Of a stretch of DNA of 64,000 nucleotides, positions 27,857 to 44,177 are shown piece by piece. This DNA is from Flavobacterium eburneipallidum (GTDB taxonomy: Bacteria; Bacteroidota; Bacteroidia; Flavobacteriales; Flavobacteriaceae). The stretch lies in NCBI RefSeq assembly GCF_027111355.2, contig NZ_CP114291.2, positions 930,001-994,000 of the forward strand. The letters are read 5' to 3'. The translations under genes were made by a program, and so were the position numbers. Within the stretch, counting starts at the first letter, position 1, and every line of letters begins with the position of its first letter. The notes under the pieces were generated by a model, which was given only the letters and a program-made list of their open reading frames with translations, did not search any database and was not told the DNA's origin.

Positions 27857-29098
27857 ATGGAAAGAGTTTTTGCAGAATATCTTATAGAAACCCCTTATGA
27901 TGTAGAACAGGCTTCGGCGGTTTTGGCGGGGGAGCAGTCCTCGGGGACATTTGTGTCGGTGCCGGGCGAAACCGAAGAATTGAAAAAACGTTTTGCAGCA
28001 CGTGTCGAGGATATTCAATTATTGGATTTGGCAGATGAACCATCCATTCCGGGAGGAAGTATTCCAGGAAAGAAATACCAGAAAGCAAGAGTAAAAGTAA
28101 GTTGGTCAATAGAAAACTTTGGTTATAATCTGCCAGTTTTAATCAGCACTTTACAGGGGAATTTATACGAAATCACGCAGTTTACGGGTTTGAAGTTAAT
28201 GGATTTTGAACTTCCTGATTCTTTCGCAACTCATTTCAAGGGACCAAAATTCGGAATCAAAGGCTCCAAATTATCCTGTGGCGTGACCGATAGACCAATG
28301 ATTGGAACGATTATCAAACCAAGTATTGGGATGAGTGTGGAGGAAACCAGTGTTTTGGTCAAAACGTTGATTGATGCCGGAATCGATTTTATCAAAGATG
28401 ACGAATTGATGGGGTCTGCTGCTAATTCGCCCTTTGATGAAAGGGTAAAAGCGATTATGAAAGTGATTCGTGACAACGAACAAAAAACAGGTAAAAAGGT
28501 AATGTATGCGTTCAATATCAGTGATGAAATTGACGAAATGCAACGAAAATACGATTTGATTAAAAAGGAAAAAGGAAGCTGTGCGATGATCAGCATTAAC
28601 AGTGTGGGACTTTCCGGAACAAAGAAAATCTGTGATCAGGGCGAACTCGTGATTCACGGACACAGAAACGGCTGGGGAATGCTGAACCGACATCCGTTGT
28701 TGGGAATTGAATTTCCGGCTTATCAAAAAATTCAACGTCTGGCAGGAGTCGATCAACTGCACGTTAACGGAATCCAGAATAAATTTTGGGAATCGGATGA
28801 TTCGGTGGTAACCTCGATAAAATCCTGTTTGAAACCCTTTTTAGGCGGATACAAAATATTACCTGTAGTGTCTTCGGGGCAATGGGGCGGACAAGCCGTA
28901 GAAACCTACCGAAGAACCCAAACCACCGATTTGCTGTATATGGCAGGTGGCGGAATTTTGGCACATCCAATGGGCCCAAAAGCCGGAGTAAATGCATTAC
29001 AGCAAGCCTGGACAGGAGCCGTTGACGGTTTGTCTGTGGAAGAAACGGCTTTGAAATATCCGGAATTTGCCGAGTCGGTAAAGAAATTTTCGAAATAA
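27857..29098 (+). CDS. RuBisCO-like protein, probable acid-sugar-phosphate enzyme
   Basis: The 413-residue cytoplasmic protein is a RuBisCO-superfamily member. By alignment from memory, K154 (IIKPSIG), K180 with D182 and E183 (FIKDDE), H267, H269 and R270 (HGHR), K309 (loop 6 region) and the GGGILAHP phosphate-binding motif keep most active-site positions; the second Lys of KPK is Ser here (KPS). It is not a carbon-fixing enzyme by context: no phosphoribulokinase or small subunit is seen. Its stop overlaps the start of a DUF1537 kinase gene by one base. In described D-apionate catabolism, OiaX and OiaT are RuBisCO-family proteins acting after the DUF1537 kinase OiaK, so a 3-oxo-acid-sugar phosphate is a plausible substrate. 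Exact reaction is unproved. Confidence 0.85.
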   Translation: MERVFAEYLIETPYDVEQASAVLAGEQSSGTFVSVPGETEELKKRFAARVEDIQLLDLADEPSIPGGSIPGKKYQKARVKVSWSIENFGYNLPVLISTLQGNLYEITQFTGLKLMDFELPDSFATHFKGPKFGIKGSKLSCGVTDRPMIGTIIKPSIGMSVEETSVLVKTLIDAGIDFIKDDELMGSAANSPFDERVKAIMKVIRDNEQKTGKKVMYAFNISDEIDEMQRKYDLIKKEKGSCAMISINSVGLSGTKKICDQGELVIHGHRNGWGMLNRHPLLGIEFPAYQKIQRLAGVDQLHVNGIQNKFWESDDSVVTSIKSCLKPFLGGYKILPVVSSGQWGGQAVETYRRTQTTDLLYMAGGGILAHPMGPKAGVNALQQAWTGAVDGLSVEETALKYPEFAESVKKFSK

Positions 29099-30477
29099 TG
29101 AAGAACGATAAATTGCTATTGGCCTATTATGGCGACGACTTCACAGGCTCTACGGATGCCCTGGAATTCCTGACGCTGGCCGGAGTGAAAACCGTTCTCT
29201 TTCTTCGAAAACCGGAACAAAAAGACCTGGATCGCTTTCCGGGAATTCAGGCCATAGGTCTGGCCGGAAAAAGCCGATCGATGTCACCGTTGGAAATGGA
29301 AGTGGAACTTTTTCCCGCTTTCGAAAACCTGAAAAGTTTTGCCCCAAATCACTTTCATTATAAAGTCTGTTCCACTTTCGATTCGGCTCCACATGTAGGG
29401 AATATCGGAAAAGCAATCAAAATCGGGATTGAAGTTTTCAATCAAAAAACAGTATTGGTGTCGCCGTCAGCACCACATTTAGGAAGATTTTGCGTTTTCG
29501 GAAATCTGTTTGCCCGAATGGGAACGATCGGAAACGGTGAAATTTATCGGATCGATCGCCATCCATCCATGAGCAAACATCCTGTTACACCCGCTTTGGA
29601 AGGCGATTTGACTTTGCATCTGGCAAAACAAACGGAGAAATCCATCAATCTTGTCAATTTAACAACAATCGAAAAAGGCACATCAGCAGTTCTCGAAGCG
29701 GTAGAAAGCAACAATGCCGAAATTCTGTTTTTTGACGGTTTCAATTTGGAACATCTCAAAACCATCGGAAGTGTTTTTAACCAATTGGCAACTGACAAAA
29801 CATTGTTTTCAGTAGGTTCATCCGGAATCGAAATGGCTTTGGGATTGAATTGGAAAAACGAAAAAATCATAGGAAACGAAATTGAATTTGAATCACCGGG
29901 AGAAGTTTCGCCCATACTCGTTTTATCGGGAAGCTGTTCTCCGGTAACTTCCGGTCAAATTGAATATGCCCTCGAAAATGGATTTCTGGAAATTCCATTA
30001 GAAAGCAAAGCTGTTGATATTCAAAATCAGGATGAAATTATAAAAAATACCGTTGTTCAGATTGTTCAAAATTTCAATCAGGGCAAAAGCACGATTCTGC
30101 ATACGAGTACAGGTCCAAATGACCCGCGCATTGCCGAAACGGAATTGTTTTTTAAATCAAAAAGAATTACTGAAAACGAAATTCAAAAACAATGCAGTTC
30201 GATTTATGGAAGCGTTTTGGGACAAATAACGAATGAGGTGTTAAAAGCAGTTCCGTTAAAAAGAATCCTCTTTGCAGGCGGCGATACATCGAGTTATGCC
30301 GCTTCCGAGCTGGATATTCTGGCGTTGGAAATGATTGCACCTATTGCACCCGGAGCACCGCTTTGCAAAGCAGTTTCGGACAACGAATGGGTCAACGGAA
30401 TAGAAATGAATTTTAAAGGCGGACAGGTAGGTACTGCCGATTATTTTATAAAAGTATTAAAAGGAGAAAAATTATGA
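29098..30477 (+). CDS. DUF1537 four-carbon acid sugar kinase family protein
   Basis: The 459-residue protein begins with the substrate-domain signature of this kinase family (YYGDDFTGSTDALEFL) and ends with the nucleotide-domain signature (LSGSCSPVTSGQIE, HTSTGPNDPR, FAGGDTSSYAA, APGAPLC). Family members phosphorylate small acid sugars such as tetronates or 3-oxo-isoapionate with ATP. The ATG overlaps the RuBisCO-like stop (TAATG), and its own stop overlaps the next ATG (ATGA), so the three genes are translationally coupled and should make one pathway: kinase first, RuBisCO-like enzyme on the phosphorylated product. It acts in the cytoplasm. Substrate identity cannot be read from sequence. 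Confidence 0.9.
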   Translation: MKNDKLLLAYYGDDFTGSTDALEFLTLAGVKTVLFLRKPEQKDLDRFPGIQAIGLAGKSRSMSPLEMEVELFPAFENLKSFAPNHFHYKVCSTFDSAPHVGNIGKAIKIGIEVFNQKTVLVSPSAPHLGRFCVFGNLFARMGTIGNGEIYRIDRHPSMSKHPVTPALEGDLTLHLAKQTEKSINLVNLTTIEKGTSAVLEAVESNNAEILFFDGFNLEHLKTIGSVFNQLATDKTLFSVGSSGIEMALGLNWKNEKIIGNEIEFESPGEVSPILVLSGSCSPVTSGQIEYALENGFLEIPLESKAVDIQNQDEIIKNTVVQIVQNFNQGKSTILHTSTGPNDPRIAETELFFKSKRITENEIQKQCSSIYGSVLGQITNEVLKAVPLKRILFAGGDTSSYAASELDILALEMIAPIAPGAPLCKAVSDNEWVNGIEMNFKGGQVGTADYFIKVLKGEKL

Positions 30478-31136
30478 GCACAAAAGTTTTAGGTTTCGTA
30501 CATACATCGGCAACATTGGTTCCGTTGTTTCAACAGTTGACAAACGAGTTTTTAAGTGGAGTGGAAACCTTCAATATAGTTGATGACAGCTTGATAAAAG
30601 ACGTCATTAAAAAAGGAAAATTAATGCCCAATACAGCGGCCAGAGTGGTGAGTCACGTTCAGGCTGCCGAAGCTGCGGGAGCTGATGTGATTTTGGTTAC
30701 TTGTTCGTCCATTGGTGTAGCGATTGAAACTGCTGCGACTTTGAGTACTGTTCCTGTCATTCGAGTAGATCAAGCGATGGCGGATGAAGCGGTGCAAATC
30801 AGCAACAAAATTGGTGTTATTGCCACTTTGCCAACGACTTTGGAACCAACCAGCGATTTGGTGAGAAGAAGAGCGGAGTTGGCAGGCAAAAATGTAACGA
30901 TTACTTCCAAATTATGCGAAGGCGCTTTCGAAGCTTTGATGAGCGGAGATGCAGCCAAACACGACGAAATGGTTGCCAAAGCCTTGAAAGAATTAATGAA
31001 AGAAGTAGATGTCATTGTTTTGGCGCAGGCTTCAATGGCAAGGGTAGTCGATGGCTTGAGTGCCGATGAAAAACTGGTGCCAATCTTGGCAAGTCCGGCC
31101 ATTGCCATGAAAAAACTGGCGGAACTATATTTTTAA
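30474..31136 (+). CDS. Asp/Glu racemase superfamily protein lacking the second catalytic Cys
   Basis: The 220-residue protein has the two-domain pattern of the aspartate/glutamate/hydantoin racemase superfamily (GFVHTSATLVPLF, ILVTCSSIG, VIRVDQAMADEAV, IGVIATLPTTLEPT). C77 in VTCSSIG is at the first catalytic position. At the second position the expected Cys is missing: the segment reads VIVLAQASMA (Q185, A186). Racemases of this fold need two Cys, while decarboxylases and isomerases of the same fold can use one. So racemisation is unlikely, and a decarboxylase, isomerase or lyase role in the module is more likely. The start is fixed by the 4-base ATGA overlap with the kinase gene. Confidence 0.75.
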   Translation: MSTKVLGFVHTSATLVPLFQQLTNEFLSGVETFNIVDDSLIKDVIKKGKLMPNTAARVVSHVQAAEAAGADVILVTCSSIGVAIETAATLSTVPVIRVDQAMADEAVQISNKIGVIATLPTTLEPTSDLVRRRAELAGKNVTITSKLCEGAFEALMSGDAAKHDEMVAKALKELMKEVDVIVLAQASMARVVDGLSADEKLVPILASPAIAMKKLAELYF

Positions 31137-31183
31137 ATTGATTTTATACTATTACTAACCAACCAAATTAACCAACCCTTTTT

Positions 31184-32452
31184 ATGCGTAAATATTTTCT
31201 TTGGCTTGCTTTGGCCTTTTTCTTGATAACCAGTTTTGGACTTTTTCAACAAATGGATTCCCTTTGGAAAACAACACTCATTTTAGCTTTTGCTAGTTTG
31301 TCTGTTGGGATTGGACATCTAAAATTATTAAGCGGGTATCAATATACCTTTTGGATTATCACTGCGGTTTGCGCCGGATTGCTGTATCCGGAATTCTTCC
31401 TGCACGTGGGAAGTTTCGATATGCGGAATAAATGGCTTATTCTAATCATTATTCAAATGGTGATGTTCGGAATGGGAACCCAAATGAGTATCGAAGATTT
31501 TACGGGTATTCGAAAATCGGGTAGAGGAGTCCTTATTGGTTTGCTGGGACATTTTACAATTATGCCGATTATGGGTTTTTTGATTGCCAAAACTTTTGGT
31601 TTTGAACCTGAAATTGCCGCGGGAATTATCCTGATTGGTTCTTGCAGCAGCGGATTGGCGTCGAATGTGATGACGTATATTGCCAAAGGAAATTTGGTTT
31701 TGTCCGTTACCGTGACGGCTATGTCCACTTTAATGGCGCCAATTATGACTCCGTTTTTGATGAAAATATTTGCGGGCACAATGGTTGAGGTTCATTTTTT
31801 GAATATGATGATGGAAATCATTAAAATCGTTCTTGTGCCTTTAGCTGCGGCAATGGTTCACGATATTTTGAAAAACTATGGAACTTTGGCAAAAAAGAGA
31901 ATTTATATTTTGACAATCCTTTCAGCAATTTGGCTCGCTGTTGTTGTTTTCTTCGGAGATTCATTTGCAGTTGCCGAAGACAGTGTAGCTTCGCCTATTT
32001 TAGAAATTATCAATTTCAGTTGTGGTGCTTTTATCGTGGGGACATTGTATCATTTGTTGTATAAAGTATATCCAAAAATAGATGCGATTATGCCTTATTT
32101 TTCGATGTTCGGAATTATTTATTTTACGTTGGTAACCACAGCTGCTGGAAGAGATAATTTAATTCAGATTGGGTTTTTGTTATTTTTGGCTTCGGTTTTG
32201 CACAATGGAGCAGGATACTTTTTTGGCTATTGGTTGAGTAGATTAAGCGGATTGGATAAAAAAAGCAGTCAGACCATCGCTTTTGAAGTGGGTCTTCAAA
32301 ATGGTGGAATGGCATCTGGATTGGCAGGTTCTATGGGAAAACTCGCAACTTTAGGTTTAGCTTCGGCTGTATTTAGTCCGTGGATGAATGTTTCTGGTTC
32401 TTTATTGGCAAATTATTGGAGAAAGAAGGGTAATGAGGAAGAGGTTTCTTGA
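31184..32452 (+). CDS. BASS-family (bile acid:sodium symporter-like) membrane transporter
   Basis: The 422-residue protein has about ten hydrophobic segments. MVMFGMGTQMSIEDF, FTIMPIMGFLIAKTF and LIGSCSSGLASNVMTYIAKGN are the characteristic crossover motifs of the BASS/SBF family, and the closing GLQNGGMASGLA is also typical. An extra N-terminal stretch with several membrane segments precedes the conserved core. Family members move organic acids such as bile acids, pantothenate or keto-acids with sodium. It lies 47 bases after the racemase-like gene and just before a strong terminator, so it closes the operon and probably imports (or exports) the acid sugar handled by the three enzymes. Confidence 0.85.
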   Translation: MRKYFLWLALAFFLITSFGLFQQMDSLWKTTLILAFASLSVGIGHLKLLSGYQYTFWIITAVCAGLLYPEFFLHVGSFDMRNKWLILIIIQMVMFGMGTQMSIEDFTGIRKSGRGVLIGLLGHFTIMPIMGFLIAKTFGFEPEIAAGIILIGSCSSGLASNVMTYIAKGNLVLSVTVTAMSTLMAPIMTPFLMKIFAGTMVEVHFLNMMMEIIKIVLVPLAAAMVHDILKNYGTLAKKRIYILTILSAIWLAVVVFFGDSFAVAEDSVASPILEIINFSCGAFIVGTLYHLLYKVYPKIDAIMPYFSMFGIIYFTLVTTAAGRDNLIQIGFLLFLASVLHNGAGYFFGYWLSRLSGLDKKSSQTIAFEVGLQNGGMASGLAGSMGKLATLGLASAVFSPWMNVSGSLLANYWRKKGNEEEVS

Positions 32453-32534: not shown

Positions 32535-35267
32535 TTAATTTTTAATAATCTTCTGGGTAAAGGAACCCTTATCGGTAGTTACTTTAACCAAATAACTTCC
32601 GTTGGATAAGTTGCTCACATCAATAGCTTCCGAAACATTAGAGATTGTTTTTACCAAAGCTCCTGTTAGGTTATAAATAGTAACTGTATTTATTTTTTGA
32701 TCAGAAGAAGAAAAATACAATTGGTTGGTAGCCGGATTTGGATACAAAGTCAATTTTGGACTTTGGATGTTGTTTTCTATACCTAAAGTGGCATAAGCGG
32801 TTTTCATATAAAATAAATTATCCGCATTTTTCTTGGCAATTGTATGACTTCCAGCTGCAAGTGATAATGTAATTATACCATTCGTAGCTGTACGATCGAT
32901 TCCATCAACTTTGGCAGAACCATCTAATTCAACAAAAACAAGTGTCAAAGTACTTGGTTGTGTTGTTGTGTAAGTGATGGTTGTGGCAGTTTCCATTTTC
33001 AAGCATTGTGTTAAGGTCAAGCCTTCGTAGTTTACTGTTCCTTTTGTGGTCGAAAGATTTCCTATAATAGTGTAGAATGTACTGTTTTTTCCATCACTGG
33101 TAAAGTTGTGAATTTGATCTCCAGCAGTAGCTGTTGAAATCGAAATTGTCCCTGAACCTGTGGCTGATGTTCCAGTTCCAACAGTTGTAATCGTGTAAGT
33201 TCCAGCAGCGGTTGGTGTACCTGTGATAGTAATTGTTTTTGCTCCAGAATCTTTAGTTGAAGTAATTCCAGCTGGTAATCCTGTGGCATTGGCATCTGTA
33301 GCATCACCTCCCCAAGTAAATACAATCGCTCCGATGGCAGTTCCAGTTGTTACCGTTTGGTTTTTGTTAGTAGGAGAAGAAAGGGTGTGTGTGCTTGCAG
33401 CTGTAACTGTTATTGTTCCCGTTCCAGAAGCTGGTGTTCCCGTTCCGCTAGTGGTTACAGTATAAGTTCCGTTAGCTGTTGGTGTACCTGTAATGGTAAT
33501 GGTTTTATTTGTTGTGTTTTTAGTTGAACTTAATCCAGCTGGTAAGTCCGTTACATTGGCATCTGTAGCATCGCCTCCCCAAGTAAAAACTGTAGCAGCA
33601 ATAGCATTACCAGCAGAAACGGTTTGGTTATTATTGTTAGGAATGGTTAATATTTGGTTGCTTACAGGCGCAGTTTCTCCTTGGATGGCTACTAATTTTG
33701 TCGTGTAAGAAGTAAGTGCAGACATCATAGCTGAATTTACAGCAGATGAGGTGTCGTCTGTAGCATTGTTGAAAGTAAATTTTAAATCGCCGCCTTGTAT
33801 GCGTCCCGAATATAACATCACATTATCTTTGGCTACCGCTGGGCTATCAGGGGTATAAGCATACATTATTGCCGAATTGGTATCGAAATTATTATAGGTT
33901 TTTGCTCCTTGTTTTGACGTAATGCTAGCGCTGATAGTTTCGTTTCTCGTAGCAACTTCAATAGCATCAAATTCAATTGGATTGGTAGTAGCATTATAAG
34001 GAACATAACGCATTTGTCCGATCATAACATTATTGAATGCTTTGATGGTTCCTCCATCTTCTCCAGAAAAAGTACCTTCGGCTCCACCAAATACATCCGT
34101 TCCTTGCATAGAAGTAAGCATTGGGTATTTACAATTACGGAAGAAATTACTTTCCATAAATACCGATGAACCTTCTGTAGATCCTGCTCCGTATTTAGAA
34201 TTTCCATCATAATAATTATTGTAAACGTGAGCCGAATAAAAACGTACACGTGGATGACGAGAATCCGAATGATCGTACCAGTTATGGTGATATGTGATAT
34301 ATAAACCAGTAGTAGTGTTTTCGCTTAATCCCAAAAGATTACATTTTCCAGAATCCCAAAAATGGTTATAAGAGAAGGTAATATAAGTCGATTTTTTGGC
34401 ATCCATCGCTCCGTCACCTTTGGCTTGGTCGGCATCTCCACCTGCACTTCCGTAAAATAAATCGCAATTGTGAATCCAAGTATAGTCGTTGTCTTGTTGT
34501 AAACCAATGTTATCACCTTCACTGGCATTGGTTAACATTAACCCAAGATTACGAATTTCTACATTAGAAGAAGTTTTAAGACGAATTCCAAATCCATTGG
34601 CAACAGCATCATCGCCAATACCTTCTAATGTAATATAACTGGCGGCATTTTGATCGTTTTCAATAACAATATCTCCACCTTCTAGAACAGCTGGATCAGT
34701 AATATTTCCTATGAATCGAATAATAAACGGACGCAAATCTTTTCCTTTTTTGATACCGTATAATATATTTTGAAGTCCTACACACGGATTTGTAGTAGCC
34801 CCAGTGATAGTAGCCGAAATAGTATTTTTAGTATTTTGACTAATATAAAGAATTACAGCTCCCGTTTTAGGTGTTCCATCCGCTTTGTAAGCTCCAGGAA
34901 CACGTCCGTTAGCAAAACCAAAACCCCAACGATCGTGTGCTAAAACAGTTAAGCTAGAGGTTGTACTTCCTGTGCCTTCCACATTTGCAGTTACTGGTTT
35001 TACAGTAAGTGTGTAAGAACCTGCTGCAAGACCAGGAACGTCAGCACGAAAATAAGTGCCATAGTTGCGAATTAACTGGGTGTCTATTTTCTTGTTGGTT
35101 TCTCCACCACCAGTATAATATACATTGTAACTATCAGCACCTGCAACTGGAGCCCATTGCACAAAAGCCGATTCTAGCCATCCTGATGTTTTGCTGTTGT
35201 CGATAACTTGTGACCATATATTTGCTGAAGCAAATAGTAGAGCCACGTAGAGTAAAATTTTTTTCAT
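32535..35267 (-). CDS. PL1 pectate lyase with T9SS sorting domain
   Basis: The 910-residue protein has a signal peptide (cleavage near NIWSQ), an N-terminal fibronectin-like domain (about 25-105), a PL1 parallel beta-helix (about 110-450) and two tandem Ig-like repeats (about 545-710, each with [13 protein letters not shown] or [13 protein letters not shown]). A further beta-domain follows, then a C-terminal type A sorting domain (about 835-910: [14 protein letters not shown] to [20 protein letters not shown]). R337 and R342 in [10 protein letters not shown] have the spacing of the two Arg of pectate lyase C, the first being the catalytic base. Acidic residues earlier ([13 protein letters not shown]) suit calcium binding. 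It is secreted by type IX secretion and cleaves polygalacturonate by beta-elimination. A palindromic operator lies 40 bases upstream. Confidence 0.93.
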
Positions 35268-36449: not shown

Positions 36450-37751
36450 TTATAAGCTCTTTTTTACTTTGTGACCAACTAAACCAAAATAAAGAATGAT
36501 TAAGAAACATACCAACGGAATGATATAACCAGCCTGAATATCATCGTGTTTCATGTCGATTAAAGTTCCCATGGCATAAGGAAGAATAGCTCCACCTACA
36601 ATTGACATTACCAACCAAGAAGAACCTGTTTCAGTATTTGATTTTAAACCAACTAATCCTAAAGAGAAAATAGTTGGAAACATAATCGACATAAAAAATC
36701 CGATACCTCCAAGCGCATAAATAATAGAAATTCCAGATCCATAAATCGCAACTAAACAAAGGAAAACACTAATAACACAATAGATAGAAAGTAAGACATA
36801 ATCTTTAACGAATTTCAAAAAGAAAGTCCCGCTAAAACGACCTACCATAAACAAAAAGCCGTAAATACCAAGATAGTAAGCAGCTGTTTTTTCATCCAAT
36901 CCTGCTTCTTTTTGAGCAATTCGAACAAAAAAACTAGTAACACAAACTTGTGCACCTACATAAAAAAATTGTGCGACTACTGCCCAACTTAAGTGAGAAA
37001 ATTTCAGAACAGAGAAAAAACCAGGTTTCACTTCATTTTCAGTTTCTGGCTGTTTCATTGATGGCAAATGCATGAAATAAAATATAATGGCTACCAAAAC
37101 CAAAATAGTTCCTAAAATAATGTAAGGCAATTTTACTGCCGATGCTTCTTCCAGAAAATAAGCTACTTTTGTAGCTTCTGACATGGCCACCATTTGTTCT
37201 GGAGTGTAGTTAATGCCCGAAAGAATAAAAGCACCTCCCAAAAAAGGAGCTAAAGTTACCGCCAAACCATTAAACGATGCCGCCAAATTCAATCGTGTGG
37301 AAGACGATTCTGGTGGACCTAAAATTGCTGCGTATGGATTGGCACTTGTTTCAAGGATAGTTAATCCACAACCAATAACAAATAAAGCAAATAAGAAAAG
37401 TTCAAAATTGGTGCTATTTGCAGCTGGTACAAAAAGAAATGCTCCTGCGGCAAAAACCAATAAACCCGTAATAATGCTGTTTTTATAACCTATTTTTTTG
37501 ATAATCATTCCCGCTGGAATTGCCATTACAAAATAAGCAAAAAATATAGCCGTATCAATCAAAGTAGATTGGCTGTTGTTGAGCTGACAGGCTTTTTTTA
37601 AATGTGGAATCAAAATACCGTCTAGCCCGTGAGCCATTCCCCAAAGGAAAAATAAACTGGTAATTAAAATAAAAGGCAAAAGGTATTTTTTTCCTGATCC
37701 CTGTTCGCCAGACGCTTCGTTTGGATTGTCAATTTGGTTAGTTACTTGCAT
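36450..37751 (-). CDS. FucP-type sugar:proton symporter (MFS)
   Basis: The 433-residue protein has twelve hydrophobic segments and the fucose/glucose/galactose permease pattern (FFLWGMAHGLDGILIPHLKKA, FFAYFVMAIPAGMIIKKIGYK, GCGLTILETSANPYAAILGPPESSSTRLNLAASFNGLA). Substrates of close relatives include L-fucose, N-acetylglucosamine and hexoses. It is the last gene of a seven-gene - strand operon, 22 bases after the MaoC-type gene. Because the operon has solute-binding-like proteins but no ABC permease, this symporter is the likely route across the inner membrane for the operon's substrate. Confidence 0.88.
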   Translation of the reverse strand: MQVTNQIDNPNEASGEQGSGKKYLLPFILITSLFFLWGMAHGLDGILIPHLKKACQLNNSQSTLIDTAIFFAYFVMAIPAGMIIKKIGYKNSIITGLLVFAAGAFLFVPAANSTNFELFLFALFVIGCGLTILETSANPYAAILGPPESSSTRLNLAASFNGLAVTLAPFLGGAFILSGINYTPEQMVAMSEATKVAYFLEEASAVKLPYIILGTILVLVAIIFYFMHLPSMKQPETENEVKPGFFSVLKFSHLSWAVVAQFFYVGAQVCVTSFFVRIAQKEAGLDEKTAAYYLGIYGFLFMVGRFSGTFFLKFVKDYVLLSIYCVISVFLCLVAIYGSGISIIYALGGIGFFMSIMFPTIFSLGLVGLKSNTETGSSWLVMSIVGGAILPYAMGTLIDMKHDDIQAGYIIPLVCFLIILYFGLVGHKVKKSL

Positions 37752-37773
37752 AATTGTATAGGTGGTTTTAAGG

Positions 37774-38214
37774 TTATTTCTTTTTTACTAATAATAAATG
37801 GTCGCATACCAAAACCACTTCACCTCTTTGGTTAATGATTTCTACATGCTCCGTAACAGTGCCCATTTCGGGTCTTTTGGCTTCTCCTTTTTCAGAAATG
37901 GTAATTTCAGAATGGATGGTGTCACCAATGTGAACTGGTTTTACAAATCGCATTCGGTCATAACCTTTCGAAAAAGCTTCAGGATTAATTTCAGATGCCG
38001 TCAAGCCAATGCCAATGCTGAAAATCATCGTTCCGTGAGCAATTCTTTGTCCAAAAGGCTGCGTTTTGCACCATTCTTCATCCATGTGATGCGGAAAAAA
38101 ATCGCCTGTGTGTCCTGCATGAACCACAAAATCGGTTTCGGTAATTGTTCTACCTAAAGTTACTCGTTTTTCATTGAGTTGGTAATCTTCAAAAAAGGTT
38201 GATTTAAAATACAT
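37774..38214 (-). CDS. MaoC-type (R)-hydratase/dehydratase
   Basis: The 146-residue hot-dog-fold protein has the hydratase motif D38-F-F-P-H-H43-M-D followed by [11 protein letters not shown]38 and H43 correspond to the catalytic pair of MaoC-like enoyl-CoA hydratases. Such enzymes add or remove water on CoA thioesters, including beta-methylmalyl-CoA/mesaconyl-CoA. Two CoA-transferase genes in the same operon could supply the thioester. The upstream gap (38215-38392) is filled by a long palindromic repeat, which does not contain a convincing terminator. Confidence 0.85.
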
Positions 38215-38238
38215 ATTTTTATTTTATTTTGTTATTGG

Positions 38239-38384
38239 TTCGTCAGTTCGAGTGTTTTATTAAAAAATGCGATAGCTGTTTTTAATAAAATGTATCGAGA
38301 ACCATCTATTATTAAAGGCTTCTCGATACAATTTTGAACCGTAAAGCTGTCGCATTACGATTCAAAATCACTCGAAGTGACGAA
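38239..38384. repeat. 146-bp imperfect long-hairpin repeat (MITE-like)
   Basis: Outer arms at 38239-38254 and 38369-38384 (TTCGTCAGTTCGAGTG against CACTCGAAGTGACGAA) match at 15 of 16 positions. Inner pairs follow in order: AATGCGATAGCTGT against AGCTGTCGCATT, and TGTATCGAGAACC against GGCTTCTCGATACA. The element fills the gap between two genes of one operon. Several mismatches suggest an old copy. Confidence 0.75.
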
Positions 38385-38392
38385 TCGTATTA

Positions 38393-39460
38393 TTATAATT
38401 CATCTATTGAAACACCTCCATTTTGGTTGCTAATATAGCAAGCTTCCACGACTTTCATCGTATCTAATACATCTTTAACGCTTGCTAATAATTTATTATC
38501 AGAACCTTCTTTGAAACGCATTAAGTTGGACATCGTTCCAATAAAAGCTTCTGGAAACCAAGAGCCTTCGAGGTTTATTTTTTCCCATTCATAAGTACCT
38601 TGTTCATTTGCTAAAGCTACTTCAAATTCATCTGGCATTCCATCAGGATAATTCATCAATAACCCCATTTTGGCTTTAATAGCCCCTTTGGTTCCTTCCC
38701 ATTTGATGTAACTTTCTTCGTGTTTGGGTCCAAAATGATGATCGTGATTCGTGTTGATAACCACACGCATTGCTTCGCCATAATTCAAAATTATTGAAGA
38801 ACGACAAGAGGATAATTTCTTCAACGGATGATGACTCGTTTTGGCATAAACTCCTTTTGGATTTCCTAAAAACGAACGAATACAATCAATATAATGCACA
38901 CTGTGAAAAAGAATTTCCAATCGTGGATGTTCTTTGATCAGCGGAAATAATTCCCAAGGTGTATTTACAGTGACTTTAATTTCCAAATCATACAAATCGC
39001 CAATAATTCCTTGGTTAATTAGATAGCGTGATGCACTTACAAAAGAAGCAAAACGCAACTGAAAATTAATGGCTGCGACCAAATTTTTTCGTTCGCAAAC
39101 CGCAACAATTTCTCTGGCTTGCGCCAAATCGTTTCCCATTGGTTTTTGTATCAAAACAGCCGAACCGTCAGGCAATTGTTCCAAGATTTCGATGTATTGA
39201 TCAGGCAAAACTGTAATGTCATAAACAGCATTCGACGGAGCGTTTTTAACTGCTTCGGCTACATTTTCAAAAACATTTGGAATACCAAATTGTTTGGCCA
39301 TATCCTCTGCTTTTGAAAGTGTTCTATTGGTAATTCCAAAAACACTGAAACCAGCCATTTTATATGCTGGCAAATGGGCATCTTTCACGATGCCACTTGC
39401 TCCAATGATGATAATTGGTTGTTCCGTTTTGGGTAATAAAGGTTTATAAGGAATATTCAT
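38393..39460 (-). CDS. Gfo/Idh/MocA-family oxidoreductase
   Basis: The start is set at ATG 39460 (MNIPYKPLLP); an upstream TTG would read through a hairpin. The 355-residue product has an N-terminal Rossmann fold (IIIIGASGIVKDAHLPAYKMAG), the QKPMG version of the EKP motif, and a C-terminal alpha/beta domain (FHSVHYIDCIRSFLG). Family members oxidise or reduce sugars or inositols with NAD(P). It has no signal peptide. Being in an operon with CoA-transferases and a hydratase, it may oxidise a sugar or hydroxy-acid before thioester formation; this is inference. Confidence 0.85.
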   Translation of the reverse strand: MNIPYKPLLPKTEQPIIIIGASGIVKDAHLPAYKMAGFSVFGITNRTLSKAEDMAKQFGIPNVFENVAEAVKNAPSNAVYDITVLPDQYIEILEQLPDGSAVLIQKPMGNDLAQAREIVAVCERKNLVAAINFQLRFASFVSASRYLINQGIIGDLYDLEIKVTVNTPWELFPLIKEHPRLEILFHSVHYIDCIRSFLGNPKGVYAKTSHHPLKKLSSCRSSIILNYGEAMRVVINTNHDHHFGPKHEESYIKWEGTKGAIKAKMGLLMNYPDGMPDEFEVALANEQGTYEWEKINLEGSWFPEAFIGTMSNLMRFKEGSDNKLLASVKDVLDTMKVVEACYISNQNGGVSIDEL

Positions 39461-39482
39461 TTTTTGATATTTTAAGGTTGTA

Positions 39483-39516
39483 ATCTTTGTCAAAGTTCAA
39501 AAACTTTGACAAAGAT
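39483..39516. repeat. Perfect 15-bp hairpin, copy 1
   Basis: ATCTTTGTCAAAGTT (39483-39497) and AACTTTGACAAAGAT (39502-39516) are perfect inverse complements with a CAAA loop. The identical stem recurs at 62458-62490. Here it lies in the transcribed leader of the Gfo/Idh/MocA gene. Confidence 0.85.
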
Positions 39517-39529
39517 ACTCATGTAATTA

Positions 39530-40753
39530 TTAGGCTATTTTTCGAATATTATTTTGAGTTTTTTCTAATAATTCTTCGGAAGAAATATCACTTTCTATCG
39601 CTTTCAAAACCATTTGGTCAATCAGTTCGGCTACTTTGGGCCAAATAGGTGTTTGTGGCAAGGTCAACGCTGTTTCGTGTAATAGTTCTAATTTATGATA
39701 AAACGGAATGGTTTTATTGATTTCAGGATCATTCCAAGTCGATTTTCGGCAACCAATTCCGCCTTCGTTGGTCAACAATTTATCACTTTCTGGAGTTGTT
39801 GCAAAGCGTAGAAAATCATAAGCTAGTTTTTGATGCTTACTTCCTGTACCAATGGTGTACAACCAATATACATTCAACGAAGCGGTTTTATGATTTTCAT
39901 TGGATGGCAATTCCGCAATATCAACTTTTCCTTTTACTTTCGATTCTTCAATCACTTCACACATCGAGGCAAATCCAAACCAATTGATTGCCATTGCGGC
40001 TTCTCCTTTGGCGAAAGCCATTCCAGCTTCAACTGAACCAAATTTTCTTGATTGAGGATGAACCGCTTTTGTATTATTAACTATATTTCTATAAAAATCC
40101 AAAGCTTCAATTGCTGCTGGTGTATTAATATCAATTTTGTTTTGAGCATTTAATAAAGAACCGCTTCGTGTCCACAATTGCAAACAGAAATCAAAAACCA
40201 TATTATGCCCATCAGGATAATTCGCAAAAACACAGCCAAATAAATTTTCTTCGTGTCTGTTGAAAAATTCGGCTATTTCAACGAATTGTTTCCAGGTTTT
40301 AGGAGGATATAATTCATAACCAAATTGCTTTTTGAAGTTTTCTTTTTCAGTTGGATTTTCAAATAAATCTTTTCTATAAATTAAACATTCTGGTCCATCG
40401 TGAAAAGGTAGTCCGTAAGTGCCGTCATTTATTTGTTGCAAATGCAGTAAAGAATTATGCCAACCTTCTGGATAATCTTGTGGTGGATTTTCGGCAATTA
40501 ATGGGTTTAAATCCAGAACGGCTTTTGCATTCGCAGCGTCAAAAATCCAATCGGTGTTGAGGTGGGCAATGTCCCAGTTTCCGTTTATTAATCCTTTTTT
40601 GGTAATGGTTTCTTCATACAAATCGTGTAACTCCAACGGAATCATTTCGGCTTCCATTTTGATGTTGTTTTTTAGACAAAACATATCCCACAGCTTTTGC
40701 AGCGTACTTTCAAAAGGGTCGAATTTTCTAACAGCGATTCTTATTTTCCCCAT
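39530..40753 (-). CDS. Solute-binding-protein-fold protein without signal peptide (407 aa)
   Basis: The 407-residue product resembles cluster B extracellular sugar-binding proteins of ABC importers: WDIAHLNTDWIFDAANAKAVLDLNPLIAE, DGTYGLPFHDGPECLIYRKDLFE, PKTWKQFVEIAEFF, GMAFAKGEAAMAINWFG. It starts MGKIRIAVRKFDPFE, with no signal peptide or lipobox, and the upstream stop of the CoA-transferase lies two bases away, so no missed export signal is possible without gene overlap. No permease or ATPase is nearby. A cytoplasmic role is therefore likely, perhaps as ligand sensor, carrier or enzyme; SBP-fold enzymes are known (for example THI5-type). It pairs with the similar gene at 43029. Confidence 0.8.
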   Translation of the reverse strand: MGKIRIAVRKFDPFESTLQKLWDMFCLKNNIKMEAEMIPLELHDLYEETITKKGLINGNWDIAHLNTDWIFDAANAKAVLDLNPLIAENPPQDYPEGWHNSLLHLQQINDGTYGLPFHDGPECLIYRKDLFENPTEKENFKKQFGYELYPPKTWKQFVEIAEFFNRHEENLFGCVFANYPDGHNMVFDFCLQLWTRSGSLLNAQNKIDINTPAAIEALDFYRNIVNNTKAVHPQSRKFGSVEAGMAFAKGEAAMAINWFGFASMCEVIEESKVKGKVDIAELPSNENHKTASLNVYWLYTIGTGSKHQKLAYDFLRFATTPESDKLLTNEGGIGCRKSTWNDPEINKTIPFYHKLELLHETALTLPQTPIWPKVAELIDQMVLKAIESDISSEELLEKTQNNIRKIA

Positions 40754-40755
40754 TA

Positions 40756-41892
40756 TTAATTTATAAATTCATTCATAATTCGCTCGTTGTCTTGTCCTAA
40801 TTTTGGTGAACCTTTGGTTGATGTAAAATATTCTCCATCAATTTTTATTGGACATCTTGTGGTTTGATACGAATAGCCATCCAGCATTTCAACTTTTTGT
40901 GTAAACTCTAAAACTTTAAAACCCTCTTCGGCAAAAAGTTCTTGATAATTCAATACTTTGGCGCACCAAATATCTGCAGGTTCTAAAATATTTAACCAAA
41001 ATTGGGTTTCCTGCGTTTGTAAATGTGTTGCTAAAACGTTCTTGATTTCGTCTCTTAATTCAAATTTATTTTCAGGAAATTGCAACAATTCATCACATTT
41101 TAAAAGCGAAGCCAAAACCGGAATTGATCCCATCGCCAGAGCCAAAAAGCCATTTTTAGTTTTGTAAATGCCATAAGGTGCACCCAAATAAGCATGTGCA
41201 TTGTTCGATTTTGTTCGAACGGGTAATTCGCCACCGTCATTGAAATAAGTCGTAATGGTTTCAAACTGAAAATCGAAAGCTGATTCCAACATACTCACCT
41301 GAACTTTTGCACCCATATTACGAGTTGCTTTTCGGTACAAAGCGGCTAAAATTCCTTGTGCCAAATGCGCTCCAGCCAGCATATCTACAATGGATAAACC
41401 CATCGGGACGGGTCCATCTTCCTGATTGCCGCTCAACCAAGTTAAGGCAGTCAGAGATTGTAATAATAAATCTTGTCCTGGTAAATCTTTTAATTCGGAT
41501 TTGGTTCCGTAGCCAGATATTTCGGCATAGATGATATTGGGATTGATTTCTTTTACGTCATCATAACTCAAACCTACTCTCTCCATCACTCCAGGTCTGA
41601 AATTGTGCATGACCACATCGGCTTTTGCCAATAGTTTTTTTAATTTTTCGAGTTCTGATGCTTGTTTAAAATCAATAGCAAAAGATTCTTTGTTTCGGTT
41701 AATAGTATGAAAAACAGAAGATTCTCCGTTCATTATCAAATCGGAAGTATAAAGAGTTCGGCAAATATCGCCTGTTCCCGGTTTCTCAATTTTTATGACA
41801 CGAGCACCCAAATCCGCCAAGCGTAAACTCGCCGAAGGCCCCGAAAGAAACTGGCTAAAATCTACTATTAAATAATCTTCTAATGGTTTCAT
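40756..41892 (-). CDS. Class III CoA-transferase (CaiB/BaiF), subunit or paralogue 1
   Basis: The 378-residue protein has the family N-terminus (MKPLEDYLIVDFSQFLSGP, LADLGARVIKIEKPGTGD), the HNFRPGVMERVGL motif and D170 in GLSIVDMLAG, the catalytic Asp that forms the aspartyl-CoA intermediate. It follows its paralogue with no gap and is strongly similar to it throughout, with identical position of the catalytic Asp. Tandem class III genes often make heterodimers (for example benzylsuccinate or succinyl-CoA:malate CoA-transferases). It should move CoA between carboxylic acids. The acid acceptor is unknown. Confidence 0.88.
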   Translation of the reverse strand: MKPLEDYLIVDFSQFLSGPSASLRLADLGARVIKIEKPGTGDICRTLYTSDLIMNGESSVFHTINRNKESFAIDFKQASELEKLKKLLAKADVVMHNFRPGVMERVGLSYDDVKEINPNIIYAEISGYGTKSELKDLPGQDLLLQSLTALTWLSGNQEDGPVPMGLSIVDMLAGAHLAQGILAALYRKATRNMGAKVQVSMLESAFDFQFETITTYFNDGGELPVRTKSNNAHAYLGAPYGIYKTKNGFLALAMGSIPVLASLLKCDELLQFPENKFELRDEIKNVLATHLQTQETQFWLNILEPADIWCAKVLNYQELFAEEGFKVLEFTQKVEMLDGYSYQTTRCPIKIDGEYFTSTKGSPKLGQDNERIMNEFIN

Positions 41893-43032
41893 CTACAAAA
41901 ATTGTTCATGTATTTTTAAATTATCTTCTCCCACTTTTGGTGCTGCTTTTGTGCTAGTTAAAATTTCTCCATCCAATTGAATGGGGCTTCTGGTAGTTAC
42001 TAATGTTTCTCCAGCTGAATTTTTTACGGTTTGTTTCAGTTGTAACTCTTCTACAAAAGGTTGATGGTCTAATTCTGCGTAATTCAAGACTTTTCCGCAC
42101 CAAATGCCTTCTTTTTGAAGCAAATCCAACCAATAATCAGCCGTTTGAGTGAGTAGTTTTTCTGCTAAAATTGCTCTAATTTCATCTCTTTGAGAAAACC
42201 ATAAATGTTTATCGGCGTAGTTTTTTAAATCAATTCCTAGAATAGTTCCAATGAAAAGTAAATCCCCCATGGCTAAAGAAATATAGCCGTTTTGAGTTGG
42301 ATAAACCCCATAAGGAGCACTCAAAAATGCGTGCGCACTTCCTTTGGTATCGCCACGCTGGGGCAATTGTCCGCCATCATTTAAGAAAGAAGTTACCGCT
42401 TCAAACTGTACATCTAAAACCGATTCTAATAAAGTAACTTCGACTAAAACACCTTTTCCAGTTTTGGCTCTTTTTAGTAAAGCAGTCAAAATTCCCTGAA
42501 CAAAATGATTGCCACACATTAAATCGGCAACTGCCAATCCAAAAGGTACGGGTTCTTGACTTTTTCGACCACTCAACCAGCTTAATCCAGAAAGGGATTG
42601 CAACAATAAATCCTGTCCAGGTTTATTAGCCCAAGGGCCTTTATCTCCGTAACCCGTAATGGTTCCGTATATTATTTTTGGGTTTATTTTTAAAGTATCT
42701 TCATAAGTTAAACCAATTTTATCCATCACACCTGGACGGAAATTATGGGTCATAATATCCGCTTTTTCGATTAGTTTTTTAACTAAAACCAAATCATCAG
42801 GATTTTTTAAATCGGCAGCAAAAGATTCTTTATTTCTGTTTATGGTATGAAAAAGCAAACTGCTATCGTCCACAAAAAGATCTTTGATACTCAACTGACG
42901 ACACGCTTCGCCTTTTATTGGGCGTTCAATTTTGATAACTCTAGCTCCTAAATCGGCTAGTTTTAAACCCGCCGAAGGGCCTGCCAAAAACTGACAAAAT
43001 TCTAAAACGACTAATCCTTCAAGTGGTTTCAT
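41893..43032 (-). CDS. Class III CoA-transferase (CaiB/BaiF), subunit or paralogue 2
   Basis: The 379-residue protein is a paralogue of its downstream neighbour: MKPLEGLVVLEFCQFLAGP, LADLGARVIKIERP, THNFRPGVMDKIGL and D170 in GLAVADLMCG. Its start overlaps the end of the upstream binding-protein-like gene by four bases (ATGA), so translation is coupled. Both copies keep the catalytic Asp, so either could be active alone or the two may form a heterodimer. The gene order binding protein, transferase, transferase, binding protein is symmetrical, as if two binding-protein/transferase pairs had arisen by duplication. Confidence 0.88.
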   Translation of the reverse strand: MKPLEGLVVLEFCQFLAGPSAGLKLADLGARVIKIERPIKGEACRQLSIKDLFVDDSSLLFHTINRNKESFAADLKNPDDLVLVKKLIEKADIMTHNFRPGVMDKIGLTYEDTLKINPKIIYGTITGYGDKGPWANKPGQDLLLQSLSGLSWLSGRKSQEPVPFGLAVADLMCGNHFVQGILTALLKRAKTGKGVLVEVTLLESVLDVQFEAVTSFLNDGGQLPQRGDTKGSAHAFLSAPYGVYPTQNGYISLAMGDLLFIGTILGIDLKNYADKHLWFSQRDEIRAILAEKLLTQTADYWLDLLQKEGIWCGKVLNYAELDHQPFVEELQLKQTVKNSAGETLVTTRSPIQLDGEILTSTKAAPKVGEDNLKIHEQFL

Positions 43033-44177
43033 TTGGCTTGTAGGTTTAAAGACTTGGTATAAAGTGCGTTCATTTCTGCCAAAACGGATGCTTCATTTCC
43101 GCCATTCATTAAGTAATCACGAACTAAATCACCAGCATGATCTTGGAAATACATGTGTCCGGAATATCTTGGACGTAAAAAAGCTCTTTCTAAAGAGGGT
43201 AAAGTATTCTTGAAATAATCGTGAGTAATACTATTGATTCTATCGCTTTTCCAAGCTTGCAGATGACCTGGTTGTCCACCATTGTCAGAAAAAATATTTT
43301 GTTGTACTTGTGATGAACCTGTAAATTCAGCATATTGAATCGCTTCGGGAATGTGTTGGCTAAATGAAGAAACCGCCAAACCCGTTCCACCCAAAGAGCT
43401 AATCATTAGGTTATTATTCAATTTCACTAAATCATAAAAGTGTAGCAAATTTTTGCTGTAGCCAATTCTAGAATAATTGGAATATCCGTAAGCGAAAGGG
43501 CAGTAGGCAATTGCATCCGAATTGACCATCGCCTCATAAACCTGAATTGGATTTCTGTTGAAGTTGGCAGGATCAATTAATTGTGCTAATTCTCGGAACA
43601 TTTGGAGTGCTTTTGTTCCTGTTTCCAAAGAAATCACTTTTTCTTGAGATTGAAACGGTGCTTCGCCCAGACTGCAACAGTACATGTAAAAACTCATTAA
43701 TACATCAACAGGAATTCCTGCAAAAGCGACTAATCCTTTTTTGGCTAGTGCCAATAAATCGTCATACGTTTGCGGAACTTTCAATCCTTGTTTTTCTAAA
43801 ATATCCAATCTTGCAGCTGCAACTGGAGTCGCTGCATCTATTGGCAATGCCCATAATTTATCGCTAAAAACGTAACTTCCGTACGATTTACCAACGGTGT
43901 TTATTTCCTGATCTTTTATATATTCAGCAGAAAGATAATCGGATAATGGCAAAATGGCTTTAGTATCGGCACCAAAACCTGTCCACGGATGATCGATAAC
44001 CAAAAGGTCAAATCTTTTGGCTAAATCTTCGATGGAAGCATCTGCGAATTCTTGTAAACTTCTTTTCTCCCAGCTAATTTCGATATTGGGGTTCAGTTCT
44101 GTAAAACGTTGAGATGTAGCCACCATGGGCAATAAACCTCTGGTGTGATTCCACGTAATCCCTTTCAGTTTTTTCAT
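43029..44177 (-). CDS. Solute-binding-protein-fold protein without signal peptide (382 aa), first gene of operon
   Basis: The product (MKKLKGITWNHTRGLLPMVATSQRFTELNPNIEISWEKR) resembles the ABC sugar-binding protein fold: RFDLLVIDHPWTGF, AVSSFSQHIPEAIQYAEFTGSSQVQQNIF. No hydrophobic export signal is present, and an in-frame stop occurs six codons upstream of the ATG, which excludes a longer N-terminus. It is the promoter-proximal gene of the operon and overlaps the next gene by four bases. It is only distantly similar to the second such protein at 39530. Similar signal-less proteins next to CoA-transferases exist in other bacteria as far as I recall, but I know no assigned function. Confidence 0.78.
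   Translation of the reverse strand: MKKLKGITWNHTRGLLPMVATSQRFTELNPNIEISWEKRSLQEFADASIEDLAKRFDLLVIDHPWTGFGADTKAILPLSDYLSAEYIKDQEINTVGKSYGSYVFSDKLWALPIDAATPVAAARLDILEKQGLKVPQTYDDLLALAKKGLVAFAGIPVDVLMSFYMYCCSLGEAPFQSQEKVISLETGTKALQMFRELAQLIDPANFNRNPIQVYEAMVNSDAIAYCPFAYGYSNYSRIGYSKNLLHFYDLVKLNNNLMISSLGGTGLAVSSFSQHIPEAIQYAEFTGSSQVQQNIFSDNGGQPGHLQAWKSDRINSITHDYFKNTLPSLERAFLRPRYSGHMYFQDHAGDLVRDYLMNGGNEASVLAEMNALYTKSLNLQAK

Follow-up and report, generated by a model that had tools for sequence, protein, structure and literature searches.

Signal-less solute-binding-fold proteins as predicted cytosolic partners of family III CoA-transferases in a putative 6-deoxy-sugar-acid operon of Flavobacterium

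In the carnitine cycle, CaiB moves CoA from product to substrate, and the dehydration of carnitine pairs a family III CoA-transferase with an acyl-CoA hydratase, CaiD. The mesaconyl-CoA hydratase of haloarchaea is of the MaoC type. It is reportedly paired with a succinyl-CoA:mesaconate CoA-transferase (PMC5592240). The other described systems closest to the locus reported here are the MalE-type solute-binding proteins (SBPs) of carbohydrate ATP-binding cassette (ABC) transporters (TMBP, 1eu8; MalE3, 6dtq; SmoF, 7ofy), the family III (Frc/CaiB) CoA-transferases, including the two-subunit benzylsuccinate CoA-transferase (9fn0), and the oxidative (non-phosphorylating) L-fucose pathway. Here, we describe an operon of seven genes on the - strand, located at positions 36450-44177 of a 64,000-nucleotide (nt) stretch of Flavobacterium eburneipallidum DNA (the window; its genome comprises 3.85 Mb in one contig and is 99.94% complete), which encodes two SBP-fold proteins lacking export signals together with two family III CoA-transferases. 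The SBP very likely works in the cytosol as a functional partner to the CoA-transferase, and the module likely acts in the catabolism of 6-deoxyhexose acids; on balance, the SBP, the family III CoA-transferases and the hydratase would probably form a cytosolic module turning a 6-deoxy-sugar acid into its CoA thioester. The seven genes are as follows:

43029..44177, - strand: SBP-A, signal-less MalE-type solute-binding-fold protein (382 aa; PF01547, 45 bits; PF13416)
41893..43032, - strand: CT1, family III CoA-transferase (379 aa; PF02515, 311 bits; Asp170 present)
40756..41892, - strand: CT2, family III CoA-transferase (378 aa; PF02515, 302 bits; Asp170 present)
39530..40753, - strand: SBP-B, second signal-less MalE-type solute-binding-fold protein (407 aa; PF01547, 100 bits)
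38393..39457, - strand: Gfo/Idh/MocA oxidoreductase (354 aa from the ATG, the open reading frame reaching a TTG at 39493; Q-K-P motif)
37774..38214, - strand: MaoC-type hydratase/dehydratase (146 aa; PF01575; GDFFPHH motif)
36450..37751, - strand: FucP-type L-fucose:H+ symporter (TIGR00885, 349.7 bits against a cut-off of 280.4)

An earlier note on this DNA had described these as tightly spaced genes, two of whose junctions overlap or abut. The seven genes and these junctions were found as claimed: CT1 shares 4 nt with SBP-A, CT2 follows CT1 directly, and SBP-B begins 2 nt after CT2. The tight spacing does not extend to the Gfo/Idh/MocA and MaoC genes, which are separated by 178 nt. The in-frame stop reported upstream of SBP-A is likewise present, a TAA being the sixth codon before the ATG. 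The Gfo-MaoC gap contains a palindromic repeat (38225-38390) that folds much better than its shuffles (z -10.7) and occurs at 15 distinct places in the genome, both strands merged; a search for an Rfam match to it returned none, and it looks like an element of the repetitive extragenic palindromic (REP) or miniature inverted-repeat transposable element (MITE) type.

In both SBP-A and SBP-B, the MalE-type two-domain fold spans the whole chain, and the Pfam SBP_bac_1 model is matched over its cut-off. The two proteins are only distant fold relatives of each other (hhalign probability 91, E 9e-7), SBP-B being nearer than SBP-A to transport SBPs in sequence. Using simple hydropathy as a measure of export signals (mark set at a 12-residue mean of 1.6) and counting N-termini from the nearest ATG or alternative start, none of 112 SBP-A sequences (108 distinct; highest value ∼1.1) and none of 94 SBP-B sequences (highest ∼1.4) reached the mark, compared to 10/10 annotated transport SBPs picked as controls from proteobacterial loci (1.63 to 3.1). 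When the longest possible upstream start is used instead, at least one locus (L042) would exceed it. A G-I-T-W motif starts at residue 6 of SBP-A in 15/15 aligned Bacteroidota sequences, and LKGMTWxHPRG or a variant thereof lies within a few codons of the start in plasmid-borne SBP-A loci. Furthermore, the ABC permease family PF00528 has three matches in the window's genome (E<=0.001), two beside a PstS-like gene (Pst-type) and one beside nitrate-type genes, as assigned by eye, and no carbohydrate ABC permease suited to SBP-A or SBP-B is among them. Both claims of the earlier note, that the SBP-fold proteins lack an export signal and that no ABC transporter is dedicated to them, are borne out by these results, and both proteins look cytosolic. 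In six proteobacterial loci (L125, L126, L128, L129, L130 and L270 of S. meliloti), the signal-less SBP has next to it a distinct sugar ABC transporter that brings an SBP of its own. In one locus (L050:13433-14687), SBP-B is broken into two frames while the remaining operon is seemingly intact, which is either a break in a single genome or a sequencing error.

The tie between the SBP-fold and transferase genes is visible in their distribution. Of 395 evenly sampled Bacteroidota genomes, 19 contain SBP-A, set apart by a clean gap (weakest E 5.8e-116), and the CoA-transferase query returned the same 19 genomes with two copies each, in line with the co-occurrence in other genomes that the reading of the earlier note requires. 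The MaoC query matched 35 of the 395 genomes at E<=1e-20. Matches of 57-100% identity were confined to 17 genomes, all of them among the 19 carrying SBP-A (0/376 others); the remaining ones are 37-41% identical and lie in frames of 674-760 aa, except for a second copy in genome G214. Of the module genomes, G107 and G182 lack a close MaoC, and both have a crotonase gene in the operon. Shared ancestry inflates these co-occurrence counts, and therefore no probability is attached to them.

At least 510 stretches encode a relative (E<=1e-3), and the nearest named relatives of the window's SBP-A are from Flavobacterium. In a set of 98 homologous loci, 80 of which are the best 80 of the 510 stretches and which are mostly close relatives with some genomes included twice, all seven genes stand in the same order in 88. 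From this retained order, we consider that the seven-gene arrangement is not a chance one. A 4-nt overlap joins the SBP-A and CT1 genes in 78/101 loci, and in 96/101 the two are no more than 20 nt apart.

Fusions were searched for with a joined SBP-A and CT1 query. Among the 120 matches listed of 248, four proteins (P0190, P0200, P0217 and P0223) are SBP-A-CT1 fusions containing both domains and covering 99-100% of the query. The junction is clean in P0190 and P0200, which start at the SBP motif without a signal. If these two clean fusions are real, their SBP domain acts in the cytosol, where CoA is. Most other listed matches are proteins of ∼620-860 aa with CoA-transferase domains only, which are taken as CT1-CT2 fusions; the two that were checked, one of them from Hymenobacter, resemble CT1 in their first half and CT2 in their second. 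No reverse-order fusion (CoA-transferase then SBP) was present among the 120 matches listed of 515, where only P0217 and P0223 recur. A further protein (P0224, 527 aa) joins a membrane domain to a truncated SBP-A and is probably an assembly chimera.

The enzymes of the operon retain their active-site residues. The catalytic Asp at residue 170, which the earlier note had recognized in both transferases, is kept in all 210 aligned homologues (CT1 101/101, CT2 109/109). CT1 and CT2 are about 50% identical to each other and score below every NCBIfam equivalog cut-off (formyl-CoA, succinate-glutarate, mesaconate, carnitine). The MaoC motif reads GDFFPHH in 101 and GDFYPHH in 1 of 102 sequences, and its Asp-x4-His dyad, which we take to be the hydratase motif of MaoC-type (R-specific) enoyl-CoA hydratases, is kept in 102/102; the Q-K-P motif of the Gfo/Idh/MocA oxidoreductase is kept in 101/102. 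Because of this conservation, CT1, CT2, MaoC and the Gfo/Idh/MocA oxidoreductase look active.

The association extends beyond the Bacteroidota. SBP-A matches 146 plasmid records, 90 of them from Sinorhizobium, at 25-56% identity, the weakest of which may be ordinary SBPs. In the 13 plasmid loci picked from these records and opened, a CoA-transferase gene is adjacent to SBP-A or one gene off in 13/13; this set includes two Bacteroidota loci (L123, L131), the same S. meliloti locus twice (L121, L122), three unannotated loci in which the genes were located by tblastn (L121, L132, L133) and a Roseateles record flagged as of unverified organism. The pair occurs on proteobacterial and Streptomyces plasmids, and in the loci opened SBP-A stays by a CoA-transferase across phyla; these neighbourhoods and the fusions go beyond what the earlier note could draw on. 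Where a proteobacterial transferase accompanies SBP-A, its best-scoring counterpart is mostly CT2. The hydratase gene varies among homologous loci (MaoC in some, crotonase in others, both in a few). This variation suggests that the loci share a reaction, acyl-CoA hydration or dehydration, and not one given enzyme for it.

A different arrangement, in which the symmetrical SBP-transferase-transferase-SBP order reflects matched pairs, had been put forward earlier and was rejected. SBP-A and SBP-B belong to the same fold only distantly, and most proteobacterial loci opened contain a single CT2-like transferase with SBP-A; matched pairs are also contradicted by the CT1-CT2 fusions and by genome G286, where CT1, CT2 and SBP-B lie ∼60 kb from SBP-A (CT1, CT2, SBP-B, Gfo and MaoC stand together without SBP-A at L263:8555-13753). 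At another locus (L035:7904-9304, - strand), a 467-aa protein, for which neither Pfam nor NCBIfam gives a match at E<=0.001, lies between SBP-A and rhamnose-type genes.

As to the substrate, the earlier suggestion of an acid made from an imported sugar draws its support from the gene neighbours, namely FucP and the L-fucose-pathway genes, whose presence, like the lack of an export signal, the co-occurrence, the gene overlap and the fusion, is read directly from the sequences. Beside many Flavobacterium loci, a divergent operon encodes an L-fucose dehydrogenase, a fuconolactonase-like amidohydrolase, an FAH protein resembling 2,4-didehydro-3-deoxy-rhamnonate hydrolase, an SDR and a Zn-dehydrogenase. 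In locus L023, the L-fucose dehydrogenase scores 356.7 against the NF052481 cut-off of 300, while the lactonase and FAH-hydrolase models remain below theirs (271 of 400 and 367 of 500, respectively). An FAH gene is present in 31 of the 80 named loci. In addition, genome G206 lacks SBP-A, CT1, CT2 and SBP-B and, in a separate gap, MaoC, and retains FucP, Gfo and the fucose genes. The missing genes occupy two separate places in its relatives, and this pattern suggests that SBP-A, CT1, CT2, SBP-B and MaoC are the functional unit.

These observations are consistent with a model in which FucP or RhaT brings in a 6-deoxyhexose, which a dehydrogenase and a lactonase would convert to the aldonate; L-fucose or a closely related sugar is the most likely candidate. 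The SBP (SBP-A, together with SBP-B in most Bacteroidota loci) would bind the aldonate and deliver it to the CT1/CT2 pair, which would make the aldonyl-CoA thioester, and MaoC (crotonase in some other loci) would then remove or add water at C2-C3, dehydration of the aldonyl-CoA being most likely. As in the case of CaiB, the CoA-transferase could hand the CoA from the product to the next aldonate. In Bacteroidota, the product may be a 2-keto-3-deoxy acid, from which the SDR and the FAH hydrolase would give pyruvate and lactate, and the module would thereby take the place that UxaA-type or enolase-type dehydratases have in the ordinary pathway. Complex formation, the substrate, the CoA thioester and the direction of the reaction are what we infer in this model. 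Its most far-reaching version, in which an SBP fold would have become a stoichiometric and sometimes fused subunit of a family III CoA-transferase, and a cytosolic complex with MaoC would dehydrate 6-deoxy aldonates as CoA thioesters in Bacteroidota, Pseudomonadota and at least one Streptomyces, is rather unlikely to hold in full.

Whether a dehydratase is replaced was approached through the FAH genes of 33 genomes (19 with the module and 14 without), positions being compared by eye from coordinates. The 22 FAH matches of at least 63% identity have within 10 kb the module in 8 cases, UxaA in 7, an enolase-family gene alone in 1 and none of these in 6; in these genomes, no FAH match was near both the module and UxaA. 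Five genomes (G324, G222, G316, G170 and G214) carry one module cluster and one UxaA cluster each. Moreover, among 98 Bacteroidota module loci, searched as stretches of at most ∼21 kb, none matches the UxaA references and three match the enolase-family references. Judging from this distribution, the module looks as if it had been swapped in for the dehydratase in most of these clusters. The window's genome encodes one UxaA, one IlvD, two MR_MLE proteins of ∼350 aa and a weak 438-aa match read as enolase.

Several points weigh against the model as a whole or in part. The co-occurrence is partly a reflection of common phylogeny. All four fusions are known from database sequences labelled only 'ena', and the junctions of P0217 and P0223 resemble a frameshift or read-through. 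SBP-A of G286 lies beside rhamnose-type genes (by eye), away from its CoA-transferases. An L-fucose dehydrogenase is encoded in only 35 of the 80 named loci, and a GH106 rhamnosidase gene comes after the operon in Desertivirga (L083). The window's genome has its fucose genes at two other places, away from the operon: a lactonase, a dehydrogenase and a Zn-dehydrogenase near C1:842361-845030, including an 84% identical L-fucose dehydrogenase homologue (C1:843195-843989), and an FAH and an SDR gene near C1:2762633, beside rhamnose-type genes. G206 has the fucose genes and neither the module, a second UxaA nor a large MR_MLE, so that its pathway is either broken or served by some other dehydratase. 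Concerning the replacement itself, there are the three Bacteroidota module loci matching enolase-family references (L085, L102 and L119), a 390-aa enolase-family gene ∼4 kb from the FAH gene of the G214 module cluster, and proteobacterial loci that combine the module with an enolase-family gene, two of which (Labrenzia and Roseateles) are also annotated with an L-fuconate dehydratase. The proteobacterial loci imply that dehydratase replacement is not general; as a rule for all phyla it is ruled out by the Labrenzia and Roseateles loci and was kept for Bacteroidota alone, where, with the odds lowered by the enolase-family gene of G214, we regard it as doubtful. The G214 region in question (L275:9225-15225) encodes, near the module cluster, the enolase-family protein, an MFS transporter, a second FAH-like protein and an SDR, and is possibly a longer catabolic region.

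The same observations bear on the best-surviving alternative, an accessory branch in which the SBP/CoA-transferase/MaoC set serves a modified or epimeric 6-deoxy sugar acid (O-methylated or rhamno-configured) and is dispensable for ordinary fucose; epimerization could then proceed by dehydration and rehydration of the CoA thioester. Several proteobacterial loci add the module to a lactonase, an enolase-family gene, an SDR and an FAH gene, the five genomes mentioned above hold both a UxaA cluster and a module cluster, and polysaccharide-utilisation locus (PUL) genes resembling those for rhamnogalacturonan II (RG-II) lie beside the window's operon, as the GH106 gene does after that of Desertivirga. 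However, the module cluster and the UxaA cluster of the five genomes carry separate FAH genes, as would suit a shared last step. We consider this branch possible, at well below even chances.

A second alternative is that the SBP-fold proteins are themselves enzymes, with the CoA-transferase acting before or after them. SBP-fold enzymes such as MqnA and cyclohexadienyl dehydratase exist, and cytosolic SBP-fold proteins are known. The sequence of SBP-A is far from those of transport SBPs with the fold kept. Across 24 divergent SBP-A sequences (Bacteroidota, Pseudomonadota and Streptomyces), 53 positions are shared by at least 23, including many with polar residues (H11, R13, D57, D62, H63, D114, Q302, R335, R337, Q345); the alignment of the invariant residues to solved SBPs is partial only. 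A conserved ligand site would nevertheless suffice to explain this pattern, and most loci already have a hydratase, MaoC or crotonase, making an enzymatic role improbable. Less probable still is that SBP-A and SBP-B are ligand sensors controlling the CoA-transferase or the operon. Both proteins keep the full clamshell fold, and the IclR regulator of other loci finds no close counterpart in the window's genome (best E 7e-4), meaning that a sensor would not be redundant there; on the other hand, an IclR gene is present in 16 of the 80 named loci (at least 45% identity) and, by annotation, in L124-L126, L128 and L131, and the enzyme fusion and gene overlap suit a subunit better. That both are normal periplasmic SBPs whose starts were misannotated, or the remains of a decayed transporter, is hardly credible: Pfam calls both SBP_bac_1 over the cut-off and the upstream start of L042 would pass the hydropathy mark, but the non-hydrophobic N-termini, the lack of a carbohydrate permease among the genome's PF00528 matches, the kept N-terminal motif, the fusion to a CoA enzyme and the strong conservation across 19 genomes all speak against it.

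On its + strand, the window further holds an RG-II-like region for polysaccharide utilisation, which includes BT_1020-like, rhamnosidase, GH95 and GH2 genes. Also encoded there, at 27857-32452 (+ strand), are a RuBisCO-like protein (best PDB match 3nwr, E 3.5e-114), an SBD_N/NBD_C kinase, an Asp/Glu racemase-type protein and an SBF symporter. Gene sets of this composition serve D-apiose breakdown, which would suit an RG-II region; in Mucilaginibacter (L110), a RuBisCO-like gene and the kinase gene are directly downstream of the homologous operon. A pectate lyase with a CBM77 module and a Por secretion tail is encoded close to the operon (32535-35267, - strand). In view of the neighbouring RG-II-like PUL, the acid sugars of RG-II (aceric acid, Dha and Kdo) were considered as substrates and set aside, homologous operons accompanying L-fucose and rhamnose genes in unrelated settings; a search of the open literature on these sugars returned nothing.

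SBPs are read almost by reflex as parts of periplasmic transport systems, and public records label the present genes in this way. If a conserved cytosolic class of SBPs tied to a CoA enzyme is confirmed, the annotation of many genomes would be altered (at least the 510 stretches counted above), CoA chemistry would be added to sugar-acid catabolism, and the module could explain how certain pectin- and fucan-degrading bacteria manage without a classical fuconate dehydratase. Among the titles and abstract openings listed by searches of the open literature, not all of them directed at this point, none describes an SBP as the partner of a CoA-transferase, and passages of PMC11378808, PMC9007349, PMC10444878 and PMC4961836 mention no such partnership.

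Compared to the systems introduced at the outset, SBP-A and SBP-B share the fold of the MalE-type SBPs but, unlike these, lack an export signal, have no carbohydrate permease among the genome's PF00528 matches and are coupled, in places fused, to a CoA-transferase. CT1 and CT2 resemble the Frc/CaiB family in the full-length PF02515 domain, the catalytic Asp and, as in benzylsuccinate CoA-transferase, the two subunits; they differ in reaching no equivalog cut-off and in partnering SBP-fold proteins, such a partner being absent from the molecule names of the structural CoA-transferase matches. The pairing of a CoA-transferase with an acyl-CoA hydratase is shared with CaiB/CaiD and the haloarchaeal mesaconate system, for which, to our knowledge, no SBP partner is known, and the substrate predicted here is a sugar acid instead. 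The dehydrogenase, lactonase, SDR, FAH hydrolase and FucP of the oxidative L-fucose pathway likewise stand by the module in many Flavobacterium loci; in contrast to the ordinary pathway, the 98 Bacteroidota module loci show no match to UxaA references and rarely one to enolase-family references, and the SBP/CoA-transferase/MaoC set is present. Overall, pairs of CoA-transferase and hydratase as well as cytosolic SBP-fold proteins are known already; of their combination here, the fusion of an SBP to a CoA-transferase would be the most unusual feature.

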